Shown one piece after another: positions 4,601-28,600 of a DNA stretch of 64,000 bases; the first letter of the stretch is position 1; the number at the start of each line of letters is the position of its first letter. Location of the stretch: NCBI GenBank assembly GCA_946811185.2, contig OX328106.1:31618426-31682425 (forward strand), read 5' to 3'. The notes beneath the pieces were generated by a model, which worked only from the letters and a program-made list of their open reading frames with translations, had not been told where the DNA came from and made no database searches. The position numbers and the translations under genes are program-made. This stretch comes from Hippopus hippopus. Taxonomy: Eukaryota > Mollusca > Bivalvia > Cardiida > Cardiidae.

Positions 4601-7600
4601 ACAAGATTGTAAACAATCGCCGATACACAGACTGGGTTATCGATTTTCTTTTCGGCACACGCGTTCGACTTCCGCTTTTTCCCAGTCGACTTCGATGCTT
4701 ACTATGTCCCCGATAATATGCGAATAAAATGTTGGAGCCACAAGTTGAGCCACATATGATGATTTTTGAGACACTTTAATTTTTTTTGAGCTAATGGCTC
4801 AAGTGGCGAATGGCAGTGCGGGCCCTGAATCATCTGGTGGTCAGTGTGACCTTGACCTTTCACAGATTAACCTTAAAATCGATAGGGATCATTTACACTC
4901 CAAGATGAATATCTGTACAGAATTTGAAGGACCTAGGTCAATTCTGTGTCTAGTTATCATCCGGACAAGGTTTGGTCTATATATCATTAAGTTGAAGGCC
5001 ACTGTGACCTTGACCTTTGATGGATTAATCTCAAAATCAACAGGGATCATCTGCACTCCAAGACAAATGTCTGTGCCAAATTTGACGAACCTAGGTCAAT
5101 TCTGTGTCTAGTTATCATCCAGACAAGGTTTGGTCTATATATCAACATGTTGACGGTCACTGTGACCTTGACCTTTGACCAATTGACCTCAAAATCAATA
5201 GGGATCATCTAAACTCCGAGACGCATGTCTGTGCCAAATTTGACAAACCTAGGTCAATTCTGTGTCTAGTTATCATCCGGACAAGGTTTGGTCTATATAT
5301 CAACATGTTGACGGTCACTGTGACCTTGACCTTTGACCGATTGACCTCAAAATCAATACGGATCATCTACACTCCAAGACGCATGTCTGTGCCAAATTTG
5401 ACGAACCTAGGTCAATTCTGTGTCTAGTTATCATCCGGACAAGGTATGGTCTACCAACGGACAGACCAACCGACGGACCGACCGACATTAGCAAAGCAAT
5501 ATACCCCCACTTCGTTGAAGGGGGGGCATAATAATTATACTAGGCAGAGCTACTGCCTTACTAGTAGTGGCAGTGGTAGGTAGGCTGTGGCTGGCAGTAA
5601 GAGTTAGGGGAGGAGCATAAGGCTCTCAATTCAGGGGCTACGCGCCTGGTTTCACAAAAAAACTTAAGTCTAATACTTAAATCCACAAACAGTCTCAGAT
5701 TCTGATTTGATTTTGAGTTTCTCATTTTCTTACAATGTTTTCTACCTTTTTTAAAGACTTTCCATCAATTGAAACACCTTTAATCTCATCATCTACACAT
5801 TGTTTCACTTTGGGTAAGTCCAAAGTTTTGTTTTCTAGTATGGAGTTAGATATAAAAAATAAAACTACAGCTCTATTTTCACTTAATTCTCATGTAAATC
5901 AAAATTGAGGAATGAGACAAGTACTTCTGTAATAAACAAGTTTGTGTTTACCTTGTTTTATTTGAACTGGATCCTAACTGTATCTCACCATCTTTTACAT
6001 TTAAAGTTTTGATACTATCTGTTGTTTTGTTAAGAATGTCCTTTCTTCCATTTAAAAGTATGTCTATTGTTCTCCCGTTCATAAAAATCTACAGTGACAA
6101 GGAACAACAACAAAGTCAGTCAAGTCTGTACTAGGAAACAAAACTTACAGTAGTTTTTTAAGAATATAAAATTTGTGGCAAAAGGAGAAAGCGCCTGTTA
6201 TGAAAAAATTCTCCAGCAAACAGAAAAGAAAAAAACTGCTGATCATCGTTTCAACAACAATTATGTGAGAAAGCAGCCAGTGGTTCAGGAAGAATATTTT
6301 GAACTGTATTTGTAAAAGAAACTCCAGTAAAGCATGAATAGGTACACTGGCTGCCACAATATTACTGAAATGATGTTAAAGATGTGTCAAACACCATTCA
6401 AACAAACAAACAAACTCATTATTGTAAACAAGAAAGCCATGATGGCCCTGAAGTCGCTCACCTGAGTCTTTTGACCAAACATGACCCATTTTCAATCTCT
6501 TTTGAGATATTATGACAAACATTCTACCAAGGTTTTCGTGAGTATTTGACTGAAAAAGGTTTTTTAAAGATTTGACTCAGTGACCTAGTTATTGACCCGA
6601 AATGATCCACTTGCAAACTGGTCCAAAAAATCATCAAGACAAACATTCTGACCAAGTTTCATGAGTATAGGATTGAAAATGTGGCCTCTATAGCATATAC
6701 AAGGTTTTCTAAGATTTGACCTGGTCACCTAGATTTTGACCCAACATGACCCATTTTCAAACTCATCCAAGATATAATCAAGACAAATGTTCTGACCAAC
6801 TTTCAAGAGTTTTGGACTGAAAATGTGGCCTCTAGAGCCTACACAAGGTTTTTCTAAGATATAACCTGGTGACCTAGTTTTCGACCTAACATGACCCATT
6901 TTTGAACTTGTCTGAGATATCATCAAGGCAAACATTCTGACTAGCTTTCAAGAATTCTGGACAGAAAATGTAGTACACAAGATTTGTCTAAGATTTGACC
7001 TAGTGACCTAGTCATTGACTGGACATAACCCATTTTCAAACTCATGCAAAGTATCATCAAGACAAACATTTTGACCAATTTTCACAGTTTTTGGACTGAA
7101 AATGTTGCCTCTAGAGTGTACACAAGGTTTTTCTAAGATTTGACCTAGTGACCTAGTTTTTGACCCAACCTGACCCTTTTGCACACTCGTCTAAGGTATC
7201 ATCAAGACAAACATTCTGACCAACTTTCAAGAGTTTTAGACAAAAATGTAGCTTCTAGGGCATACACAAGGTTATTCTAAGATTTGACCTAGTGACCTAG
7301 TTTTTGACAGGACATGACCCATTTTCAAAGTCATTCAAGATATCATCAAGACAAACATTGTGACGAACTTTCAAGAGTTTTGGACTGAAAATGTGACCTC
7401 TAGAGTGTACACAAGTTTTTTCTAAGATTCGACCTAGTGACCTAGTTTTTGACCCCACATGACCCATTTTCAAACTCCTTCAAGATATCATCAAGACAAA
7501 CATTCTGACCAATTTTCAGGAGTTTTGGACTGAAAATGTGACCTCTAGAGCGTACACAAGGTTTTTCTAAGATTTGACCTAGTGACCTAGTTTTTGACCC

Positions 7601-10600
7601 GACATGACCCATTATCAAACTTGTCCGAAGTATCATCAAGAAAAACATTCTGACCAAGTATCACGATACTTCAAGACAAACATTCTGACCAAGTATCACG
7701 AGTATCGGACTGAAAATGTGGCCTCTAGAGCATACACAAGGTAAAAGTTGACGACGCACAACGGACGACAGACGCCCGACAAAACATGATCACAAAAGCT
7801 CACCTTGAGCACTTCGTGCTCATCAGGTGAGCTGAAAATATGATATGTGGTTCCAGTGCAGCTAACAGCTTTGGAAAACAAAGTGCAAAAAGGAGATATT
7901 GCTTGTAAGAAACAGGTGCTCCTTTTCCAAAAACATTCTGAAAAACAATGGTTTCTTTCCTTCAAAAGTTTGTACCTTTTGCTGTTTGATTTTGTAATGG
8001 TGTTCAAGCATTACCTCTAAACTCAGTTTGATCCCAATCACATCACTGACAGACATAAAGTCTGATTGAAGTCTGTGTTGTTGAACTGTCACTAGAAATT
8101 TTCTCCCTTTCACTGCAGCCATTGCTTTAAACCTCTGCAGAAAAACATTGCAAGGAGTTGAGAAAAACCATTATAAATAACAACAAAGGTTATATTCTAT
8201 ATATGAAATAAAACAAATGACAGATAAACAAGCATCCTGCACTATGACCTTCAGCATGCATACTGCTTTAACAATCCATAAATACAGGTGAAGTCTGGTT
8301 AGAAATGTGTACATATATATACACAAGAAGATAGCTACTTGATAATTACATGGAAAGTACAATGAAAAAGTAGACTGAGTAAACCAAGATATTTCATATG
8401 TCTGATGATGCAAAATAACTTTCATAGCATTCCACACTGTTATTAAAAATATAGACTAAAAAAACTCACAACTTGTTAACGACATAGGTATAATGATGTC
8501 ATTTTCCACAACATGGCAAAGTAATACTAAACACAGCACTCACAATTGGTTGTTACATGTAGTTCAGTCATCATAGTTAAAACAAACAAGAACCTGGACC
8601 AAAAAACGTTAATACAACCCCTAATAATTCAACATTATTTTTTTTCATGAGCATCGGCGAGTTCTGATTGGCTGAAAAAATTTTTTCATAGCTCCATGAA
8701 AAAAAAATTTAAGCAGTGCCAGAACTACTTTTGCAGTCAAACTAATGCAAACAAACATGTATACGAGATTCCATAATGTTTTTCTGTCTGATTTTATATC
8801 CAGTCCGAATTTCAAATTGCTAGCTAAATTTATTTTCTCTGAACATTGAAAAAAATATCCAACAGTAAATTCACAGAGAGAGCTTAAACTCATTGTCACT
8901 TTGCTGGGTCCTAACAAACTTATTTTCAACTTACTTCTAGCGGATTGAACTTCTAATAATAAATCTACTAAATCTGCCAATGTTCAATACTATAATGATG
9001 TCATGAATTACGTCATTATTACGTCATGAACGAGCAGATTTACCGCGCTATGAATTATCAATGAAATGGACATTATATAAATACGCAATGTTGGATTTAC
9101 AAAAAAAAAGCAGTTAGAGTAAATTTAAGTGCATATTTGTTGTCTGTGATATTGAATTATAAGGAATGAAGAGAATTTTTTTTTGTTTTCATGGAGGTAT
9201 CAAAAAAAAACCTAATCACACTTTTGTATGAAACCGCTTTGCAGTTTCATACAGTGTGATTAAGTTTTTTTTTTCATACCTCCATGAAAACAAAAAAAAT
9301 TCTCTTCATTCCTTAAATGAGTTTTCCGTGACTTAATTGCCTTTGTAGCCAGCAAAGATCAAGATTGGACTACAAAGAACATCAAGTGAACAAGACATTC
9401 TTAAGCAATTTCAACAATAAAATTGCAATCATCTAGGTCATTTCTCCAATAAAAGTCTGTTGTGTTTATTTGGCGCTCAAAGGGATAATAGTGTATTATC
9501 AAAATTAGATATTAGTAGCATGTTTGATATATTGCTCTGATATTACAAGAACTTCACTTACATTATTTTCAGCATTCACTGTAAAAATGGCACCATCAGA
9601 CTGTGCTGTTACATTTATAGTAAACTTTGATACCCTTATTCTCTGTTGTCGAGGTTTCAACTTATACAGGGCATGACTAGAGCCATCTAAAACCAGACTT
9701 CTCTCTTCTCCAACTGTGTCACTGAAAAGTCCAACAATTGGCAAGCATAAATAGAAAGCATGAAGATTTATATATTAAGTTAACTCTTAATTAAGGATCA
9801 TGATGCACATTTGAGAAGTCTGATCTTAATCTACACTGGTTGCAAAGGCAACAAAACTAATGAAAGGTGATATAAGAATTAGTACACTAAGTAGTCATTC
9901 ACATTCTAAGATTGTATAACACTCTACCAAACAACCCTGTGTTTTAACAACACTGGGAGAGAAGGCTTTTGAAAACATTGTGGGAAAAAGAGAAACTGCT
10001 AGTTATCAAAATTTTCTCCTTTTCCCAATTCTACTAAGACAACTCTCATCATTAAAGCCATATTTAATTTGTCCGCTGCAACAATTACTGCTCTCAGCTT
10101 TCAGACCAATCTAAAATTTTGTCATCTGGTATAGATTTAATTTGAAACATAAAAGAGAGTAGATATAATATCAGTTAAGAACATTCATTCTGAAAGAAGA
10201 AATTTGCTAATTTTGTCAGAAGAAATCATAAAGATATGACTGTTTACCCATAGTTGGGAAAAGAAAGGTTGCTGAAAAAACTGCCTTCCATGTGACTTAA
10301 ACCCACAACATTCAAAACATAGTAAGGCAACTCTAACAACTAAGCTCTGGGTCCATCCAATATGTTATTGTGACAAAAATGTATTTATCCCTTGTTATGC
10401 AAAACAACTATACTATTAGCCAAATGAATCAGAAATTTTAAGATTGAAAGAAAAATGAAAAAATGGTTAATTTTCTCATGTTTTCTACATACATGTTTAT
10501 CTATGTTTTAATTTTAAAGCAATCTTTGCATATGCATGGAAATTGGCAGTCTTTGTTAAGATTTTCTGTCAAAACTTCTGAAAACAAATCTAGTTTAACA

Positions 10601-13600: not shown

Positions 13601-16600
13601 AGTATGACTTCTTTAAGGAGCTTTTGGACAGTGTAGATCTACACCGTCTGATATGGAGATATCCCCCCCCATAAAAAACACTTTGAAATGGCATGTATTT
13701 GGGTTTGTCCTGTGGGCTGGAGAGTTTCATTTACTTTGCAGGTGAAAGATTAAATTATACAATCTGTCTATAATATAAAAATTTCATAGAGAAAATAAAC
13801 GTAATTCAAAAAACAATCATATTTTTTCACATGCAATGATGATGTTAATGAATACAAGTAGGTCAAGTGAAGTGTCATTCTTATCAAATATCACTGATTA
13901 GGCCTTTAACTTAATATTAATGTACAAAAAAAAAAACTTACTGTGTTATTTGTCTGTAACATTGCAATGGTACCGGAGTCAGATTTGGATTTAACCATCA
14001 TATCCATGTGCATTGTGGACTGTTTCTTGGCTTCTTTGTTCCGTAGCGGTATTTTCAAATGGTTACTACCTTCCATATTGACTGCAACCTTAAACCACAT
14101 CGCAACATATTACAATTGATGAATAGTATATCTTACAAAAAAAGTGCAGTATTACTAAGTCTTGTATTAAATAATTGCCTTTTTCCCAAAAATGTTTTCT
14201 ACCACTGGTTACAGTACGAGTCTTATTTTATAGACATGATTTATCCTTACAGTGACAAATAAAATGAGCCATGCTCTGTGAAAAAAGGGGCTTAATGCAT
14301 CTGCGAAAAGTATCAACCCACGTCAGCCTGCACAGTCAGCGCAGGCTGACCTGGGCCAAACCTTTTCGCTATTGGTCACAAGTCTACCTAATGATTCAGT
14401 CTGTTGTTAAAATAAGTGGCTATTATAGATCCATAATTATGTGATGGCTTGCTTGGTATAATACTTCACGGAGATACATTTAGCTTCCTCTTGCCACAAC
14501 ATGGCTCAAATAATTAAATTCAGTCAGTTATAAGGGCACAAATGTTGCCATTTCTTTGCTGGTATGGTCAGGTTATAAAGTTATTGTGCATTTCCACATT
14601 CAAGGTAGTCTGTATCTTTTGTACAGTCTGATCTTGATCTACAATGTCTGCAAGAAAACAAAAATTGTAATTGATTATGGGTTAAGTCAATACTGAATTA
14701 TTATGACTTTTTACATCCCTTACATAGCTTATTCTGTGAAAAAATTGGTGAAAAGCAATCAAACCTTTTTTAGCATATCAGCAAGAAAGACATTTTCCCT
14801 CTCTTCAAAATCTTTCTCCATAGTCCTAACCCTTTACCTAACAATCCCATGTCTTAATGACCCTGTGAAAGAAGCATTTTGAAAACATAGTTGGAAAAGG
14901 AGAAATTGGTTTATACAATTTTTGTCAAGTGGTAAAGAGTTAAAGAAAAAAGAATAAAAGCTCACTTTCAGTGAAGAAGCTAACAACTTGGCCTGTTTGA
15001 TTTTCTGTCTGAGTTGAGAAATGTTAGCTCTGATCATGTTGTCCATGTCTTGTAGTTTCTTACAAGGTGTGGGATTCAGTTGTGTCAGGGCCACTATTTC
15101 ACCTACATTGTCTTTCACCTTTAAAGCTGAAATGAAAAAAAAAAAAATCCTAAACTCTTCAGCCTTTCAAAGCAACCCAACTTTTAATAGGCTTAAATAC
15201 TATCAAAGGGTTGGTGAAAAAAGGGCCCTATATACCTAGCTCTATAGCATTCTGTGCTGTATCTGGACCAATATCATCGTTCACCCTGTCCTTGTTCTTC
15301 TCGTATAACTCTTCCATTCTCTTCAATTTAGCATCAGCTTTTTTCACAGATTTTGCACTCTGTTCCACAAATACTTCTTGCTGTACAAGATAAAAATAAG
15401 GAAACACTTTACCAGAAGTGAATCAACACATTAAGCACACTAATTGTAGACCAACATGAATATTCAATATTTTTTTTAACAGGAATTGTTAACTATAGGG
15501 AGTGTCCTTGATTGAGGTTTCGCTGAGTCTAGGCTTAGTGCTTGTAAAATCCAGAGGAATATCAAAAAATGAGCCGTTTCTGCAAAATGAATGAAATATT
15601 GATGAAAGTAGCCTCAAACTCAATTCGAACAAACACATACATAATAAAGGCCAAATAGGAAAATGCTGGTGACCAGCATTTTCTGGTAACCAGCATTTTC
15701 TCGTTTTCCTCCAATGTTTCAAAAATCTTTAATCCTAAGGGTCCTTAAAACACAGGACTGTTTGATAGAGAAATAAGGGGAGATAAGAGCAAGGAACGTA
15801 ACCACATGCTGTTTTCTTACCTTGAATTTAATGTCCTTTGATACATCCAGCACTCTGTCATGAACAGCCTCAAACACAGCAACATTGGCTCTCCATTTAA
15901 GAACAGAGTTTTTCATTGCTATGGTCTTGTTTTCAAAATGGTTCATCTGTGCTGTCACTTTGTTGACCTGGTCTTGAAGTTCTAAAACAGAGGATCACTA
16001 TTTGAAAATGAGCTCCTCAAAGCATGGCAAAATATGACCAAACTAATTCCAAGCTACAGTGTATCATGAGCATGTCACCTTTGACTCTACTTTGACCTTG
16101 ACCTTGGAACCTGGCATCTGAGACCTCTGCATGTGGTCTCATCAAGGTGCCCACATAAATCAGAATGTTTTCAAAATCAGATAAGGGTTCATGAGATCAG
16201 CAGATGGACCAGGGGCATTAACAATGCCCCTTCAGACAAATAGAAAGACCACTCTCAGTGCGCTGCCTGTATTTACTCTCAAAGAAAATTTATAAAATGA
16301 CACCAGTCTGTTGCCCATTCTTGAGCCAAGCCTGGTATACGAAGGCTCAGTCTGCATGTACTTGGATACTAATACTGGCATTGTGAGGTCAAATCCTGGA
16401 TGGTCAAATTCTTTTCAAGGATTGATAATTGCCAATGCAACAGGTTTTTTTCCTCTTAACCACACAACAAAAGTTTAGATTTATCCATATCTAACCCTTT
16501 ACCGCACAATCCCGACTTATATTGACCCTGAGAAAGAAGCCTTTTGAAAATATTGTGTGAAAAGAAGAAAATGCTGGTAAGCAGCATTTTCTCCTTTTCC

Positions 16601-25600: not shown

Positions 25601-28600
25601 TAACTATGTCAAAGGAATTTCAACATTTACCTGTCTTACTGGTATTTAAAGAACTTTTGCTCTAGTTTTACAATACATTTTTCTGCCAGTGACTGGACCC
25701 TTGATAGATTGTACTGTAACACATTACTAGACTTATAATATCCATACATGAATATGAATTCAATTTGCAATTTGACCTCCAAATTAATTGAGCCATACTC
25801 TGTGAAAAGGGGGCTTCATGCATTTGTGAAAAGTACCGACCCAGGTCAGACTGCGCAGTCAACGCAGGCTGACCTGGGACGAAACTTTTCGCTACTGGCC
25901 AATTTTCTGTATGTCAAAGGACCACTGTACCTCATGATTCAGTAGACTGTTATACAAAACGGATTTTAGAGTGTTATAATACTGTGATGACTTGCTTGGT
26001 ATCATGTATCATGGAGATGCATCAAGCCCCCTTTTGCCAGAGCATGGCTCAATTACTTTTGGCTGCTAGTATGAACCGTTAATGAAGAAGGATCCAAGAG
26101 CACTTTACCCTCTGTATATAGCATTTGCTTGTACCAAATCTCTTAACTGTTTACCATACAACAAAATTGCAGACTTGTCTAAATTGAAAGCGTTTGCAGG
26201 CGACAATTTACATGTGGCTCAAACGATAAAATTTGTCTTTGATAGGGTAGAAAACACTGTGGTAAAAGGTAAAAAAATTCTGGTTCACAGCATTTATTCA
26301 TTTTCCCACAATGTTTTCATATGGCTTCTTTTTCAGGGTTGTTAAAACTCAGGATTGTATTGTGAGGGGTCAATAAATGAGAAAATGCTGGTAAGCTCTC
26401 TAGGGGTCTATGTTGTACTCTATACAGAGTCAAACAAGATGAAGAATGTTTGGATTAGTCACTATTATTTTCACTATATAGCTTACCGAATACAGTTGCC
26501 TAACATCAGCCAATATATCTCGTGCATCATTAATATAGTTTCTGGCAGTTCGCATGTCAAGGAAAGTTGAATTACCAGAACGCTGCAAAGGTAAAAATAC
26601 AAATAGTTATTAAAATAAGTAAGTACTTCTGTATATGTCTCTACCTTTCACAATCTTTAAAAATAGATGTAATATAGTTTCCTACATTATCTAACAAATA
26701 TTCTGTACTCTTTGGAAAAAAAATCCCTGCTTAAATGTTTAAAGATTAATAACATTTTTTTATACCTGAAACATGACAGAAAAAAAAGTCTGTATCTATA
26801 CATTGAGGAATACAGTTCAAAATATGGTATGATTATGTAAATCACACACTGAATATGTATGTATTGATTTGCAACATGATTGGTCAAAATTTTACAATAT
26901 AATATGCATCCGCCATTTATCATTTACAAAGTTACTGGCTACTACACCATTATTAATTTTGTTTCATTTGTAATGTCAATAATTGCAAAATTTTGTCATT
27001 GAAATTGTAGGTATATATTATTGGAATATTTTGTTGTAGTAACTTTCCTGATATTTGTATTTACTTCTTGCTGTGAAAGGAAGTTTTGACATCTCACACG
27101 GCCTCCAGTCTCGCACAGTATCAAAATTTCTCATGCTGCTCGAATCAAGTACAAGCACCACAAAATTTACTACAACATCATATTCCATATTTATACAGAT
27201 ATGCATATCATTCTCCCATGTTAACTGTTAACTAACTCTTTACCGAATGACAAAATTTTAGACTTGTCGACATTGAGAGCATTAAATTTTGCAGACAACA
27301 CAAATGTGACTCAACAATAGAAATTTGTTTTAGAAAACCTATAAAATGCTGGGTACCCGTTTTTTCTCCTTTTTCCACAATGTTTTAAAAGCCCCCTTTT
27401 TCAGAATTGTTTAAAGTCAGGACTGTGTGGTAAAAGGTTAGGGCTTCTGAAACAATTTAGAACTCCCTGCTGATGACTTTTTGAATCTTGCAGCACACCA
27501 GTTTTGACTTCAACGTTTTACCAAACAACAAAATTTTAGCCTCTTCCAAACTGAAAGTACTTGCAAATGACAATTTAAATGTGGCTCAAATGATAGATTT
27601 TTGTGAATGAAAGAGTAGACAAGATTTATGGAAAAGTAGAAAGTGGTGGTGACCAGCATTTTCTACTCTTCCCAATGCCTTCTCCCTCATGGTTGTTGAA
27701 AAATCGGGATTGTTCAGTAAAGGGTTTATCTCCATATGATACATCCATGTATAATAGTGTCACAGAGAGAGGTTAGGTATATAAGCACTTGCCTTGCTGT
27801 TGAGCTAGCTTTTACAGCAATGCGGTTTGGTGCATTTCTCTCCATGAAAGTTAAGCAACGTGCTCTAGGTTAGTGCCTGGATGGGTGACAAGGCTGTTGC
27901 ACGTCACATTTGGTGGCAGCGGTGGGATTATGACAACTGCCGGACTGGAGTTGCCTTACCCATGTATATTCCCCTGGTGTACTCGTGTATAAGTCTCAGG
28001 ATGGAGACTTCTTTAAGGGGAAAGTAATGTCACAGAGAGAGGTTAGGTATATAAGCACTTCAAACCTGCCTTGCTGTTGAGCTAGCTTTTACAGCGATGC
28101 GGTTTGGTGCATTTCTCTCCATGAAAGTTAAGCAACATGCTCTAGGTTAGTGCCTGGATGGGTGACCAGGCTGTTGCATGTCATAATAGAGTAATGGGCC
28201 AAAAACATATCACAAAAGTTGTAAGAGACTTACACGTGGAAAACGTTTCCTGTTCATTACATCTTTCATTGCTCTCGAGTACTCTAACACCTGGATTGTC
28301 TGGTTAGCTCGTCTCGCAAGATCATACAGTGCTCTTGTTGGCAATTTTTCTGCTATCTTTCGTGTAAGCTCTGTATAATCGTATCTCAGATTTCTTCTTT
28401 GTCTAGTGGAGGATAAAGGAATAATAGTCTTTCATACTGCTGGTTCTATAAACAGAACTTAAAACCTTTTGTAACTTTCTATGTTAATTTCTGAATACAT
28501 AATGAAATATTGCTATCACTTGTTTTTGCCCAGCTCAGTGAAGTTTGATGTTTATAACAAGGTTTTTAGCTGTATCTAACAATGTCAGAACACCTATTCA

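Follow-up and report, generated by a model that had tools for sequence, protein, structure and literature searches.

TRIMs whose LTRs carry the Pol III promoter of a small-RNA gene are grouped as TRIMp3 (PMC10886601). Among them is Ajax, a 5S-promoter TRIM of the nemerteans Notospermus geniculatus and Lineus longissimus (Kojima 2024, PMC10886601). According to the part of that report available to us, Ajax is 421/434 bp long, uses a tRNA-Leu primer, gives 5-bp target duplications and has only box A, the intermediate element and box C of 5S rRNA in its LTRs. The same part lists Cassandra, the 5S-TRIM of plants, at 565-860 bp, and Helenus, the tRNA-promoter TRIMs of fungi, animals and plants, with 51 families in pteriomorphian bivalves. 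Cassandra is further described in PMC7215508, which reports 5S RNA sequences together with promoters and terminators as well as tandem arrays, and it is also the subject of PMC10853983; the T. maxima genome paper is PMC11700175. Here we describe a TRIM of the clam Hippopus hippopus with a 5S promoter segment in both LTRs.

Anatomy of the element in the window

The window is the whole 64,000-nucleotide stretch of H. hippopus DNA that was analyzed. Within it, positions 27758-28185 of the + strand form a 428-bp TRIM with LTRs of 151 and 158 bp and an interior of 119 bp. Its features are as follows.

27754..27757, no strand: 5' target-site duplication ATAG, 4 bp, the length found in 16/30 copies with the window copy counted
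27758..27908, + strand: 5' LTR (LTR1), 151 bp, TGTCAC...GTCACA, without 7 bp that LTR2 has
27778..27784, + strand: TATATAA in LTR1, possible upstream promoter element, LTR position 21-27
27810..27813, + strand: TTTT in LTR1, at LTR position 53 in the window copy and 60 in most copies
27848..27889, + strand: segment of LTR1 homologous to the 5S rRNA gene (positions 49-91 of 5S), aligned to the host 5S gene
Boxes of LTR1, + strand: box A from 27849, intermediate element at ~27865-27870, box C from 27878
27909..28027, + strand: non-coding interior, 119 bp
27911..27928, + strand: primer-binding site (PBS) TGGTGGCAGCGGTGGGAT, 18 nt, separated from the LTR by a 2-nt spacer
27991..28010, + strand: inverted repeat AAGTCTC...GAGACTT, just upstream of the purine tract
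28015..28024, + strand: polypurine tract AAGGGGAAAG, followed by TAA and then the 3' LTR
28028..28185, + strand: 3' LTR (LTR2), 158 bp, terminus altered to GTCATA
28048..28054, + strand: TATATAA in LTR2
28087..28090, + strand: TTTT in LTR2, candidate Pol III stop, LTR position 60-63
28125..28167, + strand: segment of LTR2 homologous to the 5S rRNA gene (positions 49-92 of 5S)
Boxes of LTR2, + strand: box A from 28126, intermediate element at ~28142-28147, box C from 28155
28186..28189, no strand: 3' target-site duplication ATAG, 4 bp

The direct repeats, tRNA-type primer-binding site, purine tract and ordered 5S boxes on which the original prediction was built are all present, but the lengths it gave (LTRs of 149/156 bp, interior of 121 bp) needed correction to 151/158 and 119 bp, the LTR ending two bases later. 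The mapping of 30 genomic copies, described below, places the end of the window element at 28185 and its duplication at ATAG. The predicted 6-bp duplication TAATAG is therefore this 4-bp repeat with two further bases that agree by chance, and a 6-bp duplication was rejected since none of the 30 copies has one.

Upon alignment of LTR1 with LTR2, 146/151 aligned bases agreed and one 7-bp gap remained. The usual LTR terminus in the 30 mapped copies is GTTACA or GTCACA, whereas the 3' LTR of the window ends in GTCATA. The window copy has a 7-bp deletion in LTR1 and a short interior of 119 bp. It is a partly decayed insertion. No stop-to-stop frame of at least 90 aa overlaps it. The element thus combines a short LTR pair, a PBS, a purine tract, a length of <1 kb and no coding sequence, as TRIMs do, with promoter sequence of a small-RNA gene inside the LTR, as in TRIMp3.

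Elsewhere in the window, positions 4839-5453 and 6556-7657 hold tandem arrays whose repeat units measure 158 bp and 145/289 bp, and a weak Laminin_II match, below cut-off (E=0.00096), lies on the - strand at 14834-15166. The TRIM may sit in or near a laminin-like gene of the opposite strand. An ARAGORN tRNA scan of the window found none.

A dispersed family of copies

We searched the same assembly (1.068 Gb, 34 contigs) for further copies and found at least 44 matches, namely 43 near-full-length ones, including the window copy, and one partial; this count is a lower bound because just 40 of 876 candidates were scored. Three pairs among the 43 near-full-length matches overlap in tandem arrays. 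The best 30 matches (L001-L030), a sample biased toward those nearest to the window copy, were fetched, oriented and mapped. The LTRs were 158 bp long in 57 of 60 cases, the interior was 133 bp in 21/30 copies (range 119-134 bp), and whole elements measured 428-450 bp. An exact 4-bp target duplication flanked 16/30 copies, and exact 5- or 6-bp duplications flanked 0/30. Six of the 14 copies without an exact duplication lie within or adjoin tandem LTR-interior-LTR units (L008, L010, L014, L015, L021, L024); among the other eight, six mismatch at one of the four duplication bases and two mismatch at two. Copies dispersed in the genome, with the LTR pairs and target duplications that the original prediction anticipated, are thus present.

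The array formed by L014 and L015 (C8:52814865-52815609) has the structure LTR-interior-LTR-interior-LTR, and a 4-bp AAAG duplication surrounds it as a whole. L010, L021 and L024 represent further tandem units of this type. Such arrays are what a tandem dimer of a 5S-derived SINE resembling an LTR element could also produce. SINE3 elements are 5S-derived SINEs that are moved by LINE proteins and have no LTRs, PBS or purine tract; they share with the clam element a promoter from 5S and differ from it in having none of its LTR-element features. The TG...CA ends, the PBS 2 nt from the LTR, the purine tract and the 4-bp duplications in 16/30 copies contradict a SINE dimer, which we rejected as highly improbable. 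Nor are the fetched copies simple tandem 5S-SINE units devoid of PBS, purine tract and duplications, the outcome that would have told against the original prediction.

The lengths also bear on whether the element is biv-TRIM, an already described bivalve TRIM with tandem and solo forms that is reported from another cardiid, Cerastoderma edule (PMC6934838). As described in the available part of that report, biv-TRIM has repeats of 202-218 bp and an interior of 77-80 bp, compared with LTRs of 151-158 bp and interiors of 119-134 bp here; its conserved interior motif TGATCCCAAAGGAC occurs in 0/30 clam interiors; and it is without a clear PBS, whereas the clam TRIM has one. That part mentions no 5S sequence (PMC6934838). 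Identity with biv-TRIM, compared by description, was accordingly rejected on lengths, interior motif and PBS, and we give it next to no credence.

The two LTRs of L006 (C17:2838877-2839321) are identical over 158/158 positions. Exact duplications in 16/30 copies together with one copy with identical LTRs argue that the family moved recently, and judged from its sequences we regard it as a recently active TRIM family. L006 and L020 (C18:709156-709600), on different contigs, agree in the eight bases that flank them on either side, which suggests a duplicated segment or an assembly duplication.

The perfect 9-bp form of the inverted repeat (AAGTCTC...GAGACTT region) was found in 17/30 copies. An LTR-type 23-mer that reaches across the intermediate element and box C occurred 150 times in the genome, compared with 0 times for its reversed control. 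Among the 100 places listed, we found 20 neighboring same-strand pairs within 330 bp, 16 of which are spaced 289-295 bp, as expected for LTR pairs. One further 23-mer place that we inspected (L062) matches LTR positions 25-158. The 23-mer had no match in a viral collection. The last contig of the assembly (C34, 23,957 bp) is mitochondrial, and its ND4 matches that of Tridacna derasa at 100% identity, followed by other Tridacna at 75-76%; this makes the host a giant clam, in agreement with the mollusc of the original prediction. On this contig (L063, C34:1-6000), a repetitive stretch at 2457-2895 beyond ND4 reads in several frames as LFLS or SVPI repeats, and an ARAGORN scan of L063 found no tRNA.

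Primer-binding site and a candidate Gypsy partner

The 18-nt PBS is the complement of a host tRNA-Leu(AAG) terminus, counting the 3' end of the gene and the added CCA; five genomic places have that tRNA end, one of them typed as tRNA-Leu(aag). It is exact in 10/30 copies, the others having base changes, often GCAGAGG for GCAGCGG. The exact 18-mer occurs at 66 genomic places (control 0), of which we inspected 20, all on the + strand and outside previously recognized TRIM copies. These comprised 12 further TRIM copies with variant central segments (e.g. GGTTATAGTTAGTGCC) and 8 other LTR-type loci.

One LTR-type family with this PBS (L069-L071) ends in ..GTGCACGTCACA, compared with ..TTGCACGTCACA in LTR1 of the window. 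In its copy at C3:470903 (L086-L089), the 854-bp LTRs are identical, the target duplication is GTAC (4 bp), the tRNA-Leu PBS is that of the TRIM, and long open frames contain domains of reverse transcriptase (RT), protease and the integrase C-terminus. A match to the integrase core falls below cut-off, in a frame that starts at the edge of the fetched piece. The locus is a young Gypsy-type element. Its LTR end, TGCACGTCACA, equals that of LTR1 in the window, and a local match between the TRIM and C3:470903 across LTR end and PBS reached E=5e-5, largely owing to the PBS itself. On the basis of PBS, LTR end and duplication length, this Gypsy element is the best candidate for supplying enzymes to the TRIM. 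We treat the assignment as a lead because several other LTR-type loci carry the same PBS, some with similar ends.

The LTRs hold the promoter segment of a 5S gene

Host 5S genes were found on C2 and C8 (at least 47 matches; 47 were scored of 18950 first-look candidates), and the 30 that we fetched, all from C2, share one identical 119-nt sequence. LTR positions 99-140 align with host 5S positions 50-92, covering box A, the intermediate element and most of box C, whose limits we take to be 50-64, 67-72 and 80-97, respectively. One base is missing from the LTRs between box A and the intermediate element, which is the weakest part of the match. LTR1 of the window differs from host 5S at position 92 (box C) and LTR2 at position 61 (box A). 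The alignment scored 46 for LTR2 of the window and 49 for LTR2 of L003, compared with a maximum of 24 among 1000 dinucleotide shuffles of each. With 5S homology far above shuffles and paired LTRs, the prediction of an animal TRIM of the LTR type, with an internal 5S promoter in both LTRs, was borne out. In the covariance-model comparison proposed alongside that prediction, the Rfam 5S model had no match in 27600-28400 at E<=10. This rules out a complete 5S gene there and implies that the LTR holds a promoter segment and not the whole 5S rRNA.

Mean variation in the LTRs was 0.024 for box A, 0.042 for box C and 0.0875 for the intermediate element, compared with 0.018 for LTR positions 1-20, such that neither box A nor box C is clearly better conserved than the remaining LTR. 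When the 12 further copies were taken with six of the first set, exact cores were found in 9/18 for box A and 14/18 for box C.

Proposed transcription and mobilization

We consider it probable that the element as a whole is a Pol III-transcribed 5S-promoter TRIM that is mobilized by Gypsy proteins with a tRNA-Leu primer. Transcription by Pol III is inferred from the sequence. TATATAA at LTR positions 21-27 is invariant in the 60 LTRs of the 30 best-matching loci, and TTTT lies at or within one base of LTR position 60 in 59/60 LTRs, the exception being LTR1 of the window with TTTT at 53. Other T-runs of at least four occur in 3/30 copies. The invariant TATATAA and the single conserved TTTT would be compatible with start and stop signals for Pol III.

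In the mechanism that we propose, TFIIIA and TFIIIC would bring RNA polymerase III to the 5' LTR, and transcription would start near LTR position 50, as judged from 5S spacing, placing TATATAA at ~-29. The polymerase would pass the promoter-proximal TTTT ~10 nt after the start, continue through the interior and stop at the TTTT of the 3' LTR, position 60-63. The resulting RNA would span ~284-305 nt, as measured on three copies, and its terminal repeat (R) ~14 nt. A Gypsy element that shares the PBS and has a similar LTR end could then provide the proteins that reverse-transcribe this RNA from a tRNA-Leu primer and integrate the DNA, giving 4-bp duplications. The model is weakened by the TTTT ~10 nt past the start, which would have to be read through. 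Three of the 12 further copies have no TTTT, and four have no TATATAA at position 21. That TTTT does not occur between the T-runs of the two LTRs carries little weight, as 17-31% of the shuffles made from three copies showed the same. The predicted fold of the window-copy model transcript (z -2.99, ends paired) was not counted as evidence.

Alternatively, RNA polymerase II could transcribe the TRIM from TATATAA, with the 5S segment being a relic, a TFIIIA-binding element or an RNA-structure element. Most LTR elements are transcribed by Pol II, and TATATAA is better conserved than the 5S boxes in the 60 LTRs. However, AATAAA and ATTAAA are both absent in 30/30 copies, the 5S homology does not extend beyond the promoter part (5S 49-92) and persists, with changes, in variant copies, and some 5S genes also carry TATA-like elements upstream. 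We therefore judge Pol II transcription from TATATAA to be unlikely, though deserving of some weight.

Returning to Pol III transcription, a broader proposal would be that the family represents a third independent capture of a 5S promoter by an LTR element, following those of Cassandra in plants and Ajax in nemerteans, that the Pol III start and a single Pol III stop, spaced ~10 nt apart within the LTR, define a minimal R, and that a Pol III RNA replaces the capped, polyadenylated RNA usual for retrotransposons. We advance this proposal only tentatively.

Comparison with known systems

The clam family is a genuine 5S-promoter TRIM, a known kind (TRIMp3) now in a new phylum. Our literature search, with Repbase and most subscription journals outside its scope, found no earlier description of a mollusc 5S-TRIM. 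The original prediction likewise named no mollusc counterpart; an animal counterpart, Ajax, has been published (PMC10886601). With the clam family, 5S-promoter LTR elements would reach a third major lineage. Recently active copies sit in an animal with a chromosome-scale assembly, and the genome also contains a plausible autonomous Gypsy partner, which offers a direct test of whether a Pol III transcript can sustain an LTR retrotransposon cycle. A caution also follows, as short 5S-like matches of mollusc genomes may be LTRs.

Animal Helenus, as far as the available text of its description goes, resembles the clam family in giving 4-bp duplications, in being thought to use Gypsy proteins and in occurring in bivalves, here pteriomorphian ones; it differs in that its promoter derives from tRNA and not from 5S rRNA. 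Cassandra is likewise a TRIM with a 5S promoter in its LTRs and forms tandem arrays. The claim that the clam element has exactly the Cassandra build did not hold, since Cassandra, from plant hosts, is longer in the account available to us (565-860 bp, compared with 428-450 bp) and the clam TRIM has only the promoter segment of 5S.

The closest described kind is Ajax, and on the published details accessible to us the anatomy of the clam TRIM works like that of Ajax. Both are TRIMs of near size (421/434 and 428-450 bp) with only the 5S boxes in the LTR and a tRNA-Leu primer. These likenesses would also suit descent from the nemertean Ajax lineage, by a shared ancestor or horizontal transfer, which is compatible with the Pol III-transcribed TRIM that we favor. 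The hosts belong to different phyla, however, and the duplications are 5 bp in Ajax as opposed to 4 bp in the clam family, leaving such descent possible but doubtful in our estimation; independent capture of 5S by a TRIM, as originally predicted, is plausible. The two were compared by description. Because its duplication is 4 bp, we do not file the TRIM of this mollusc as Ajax.
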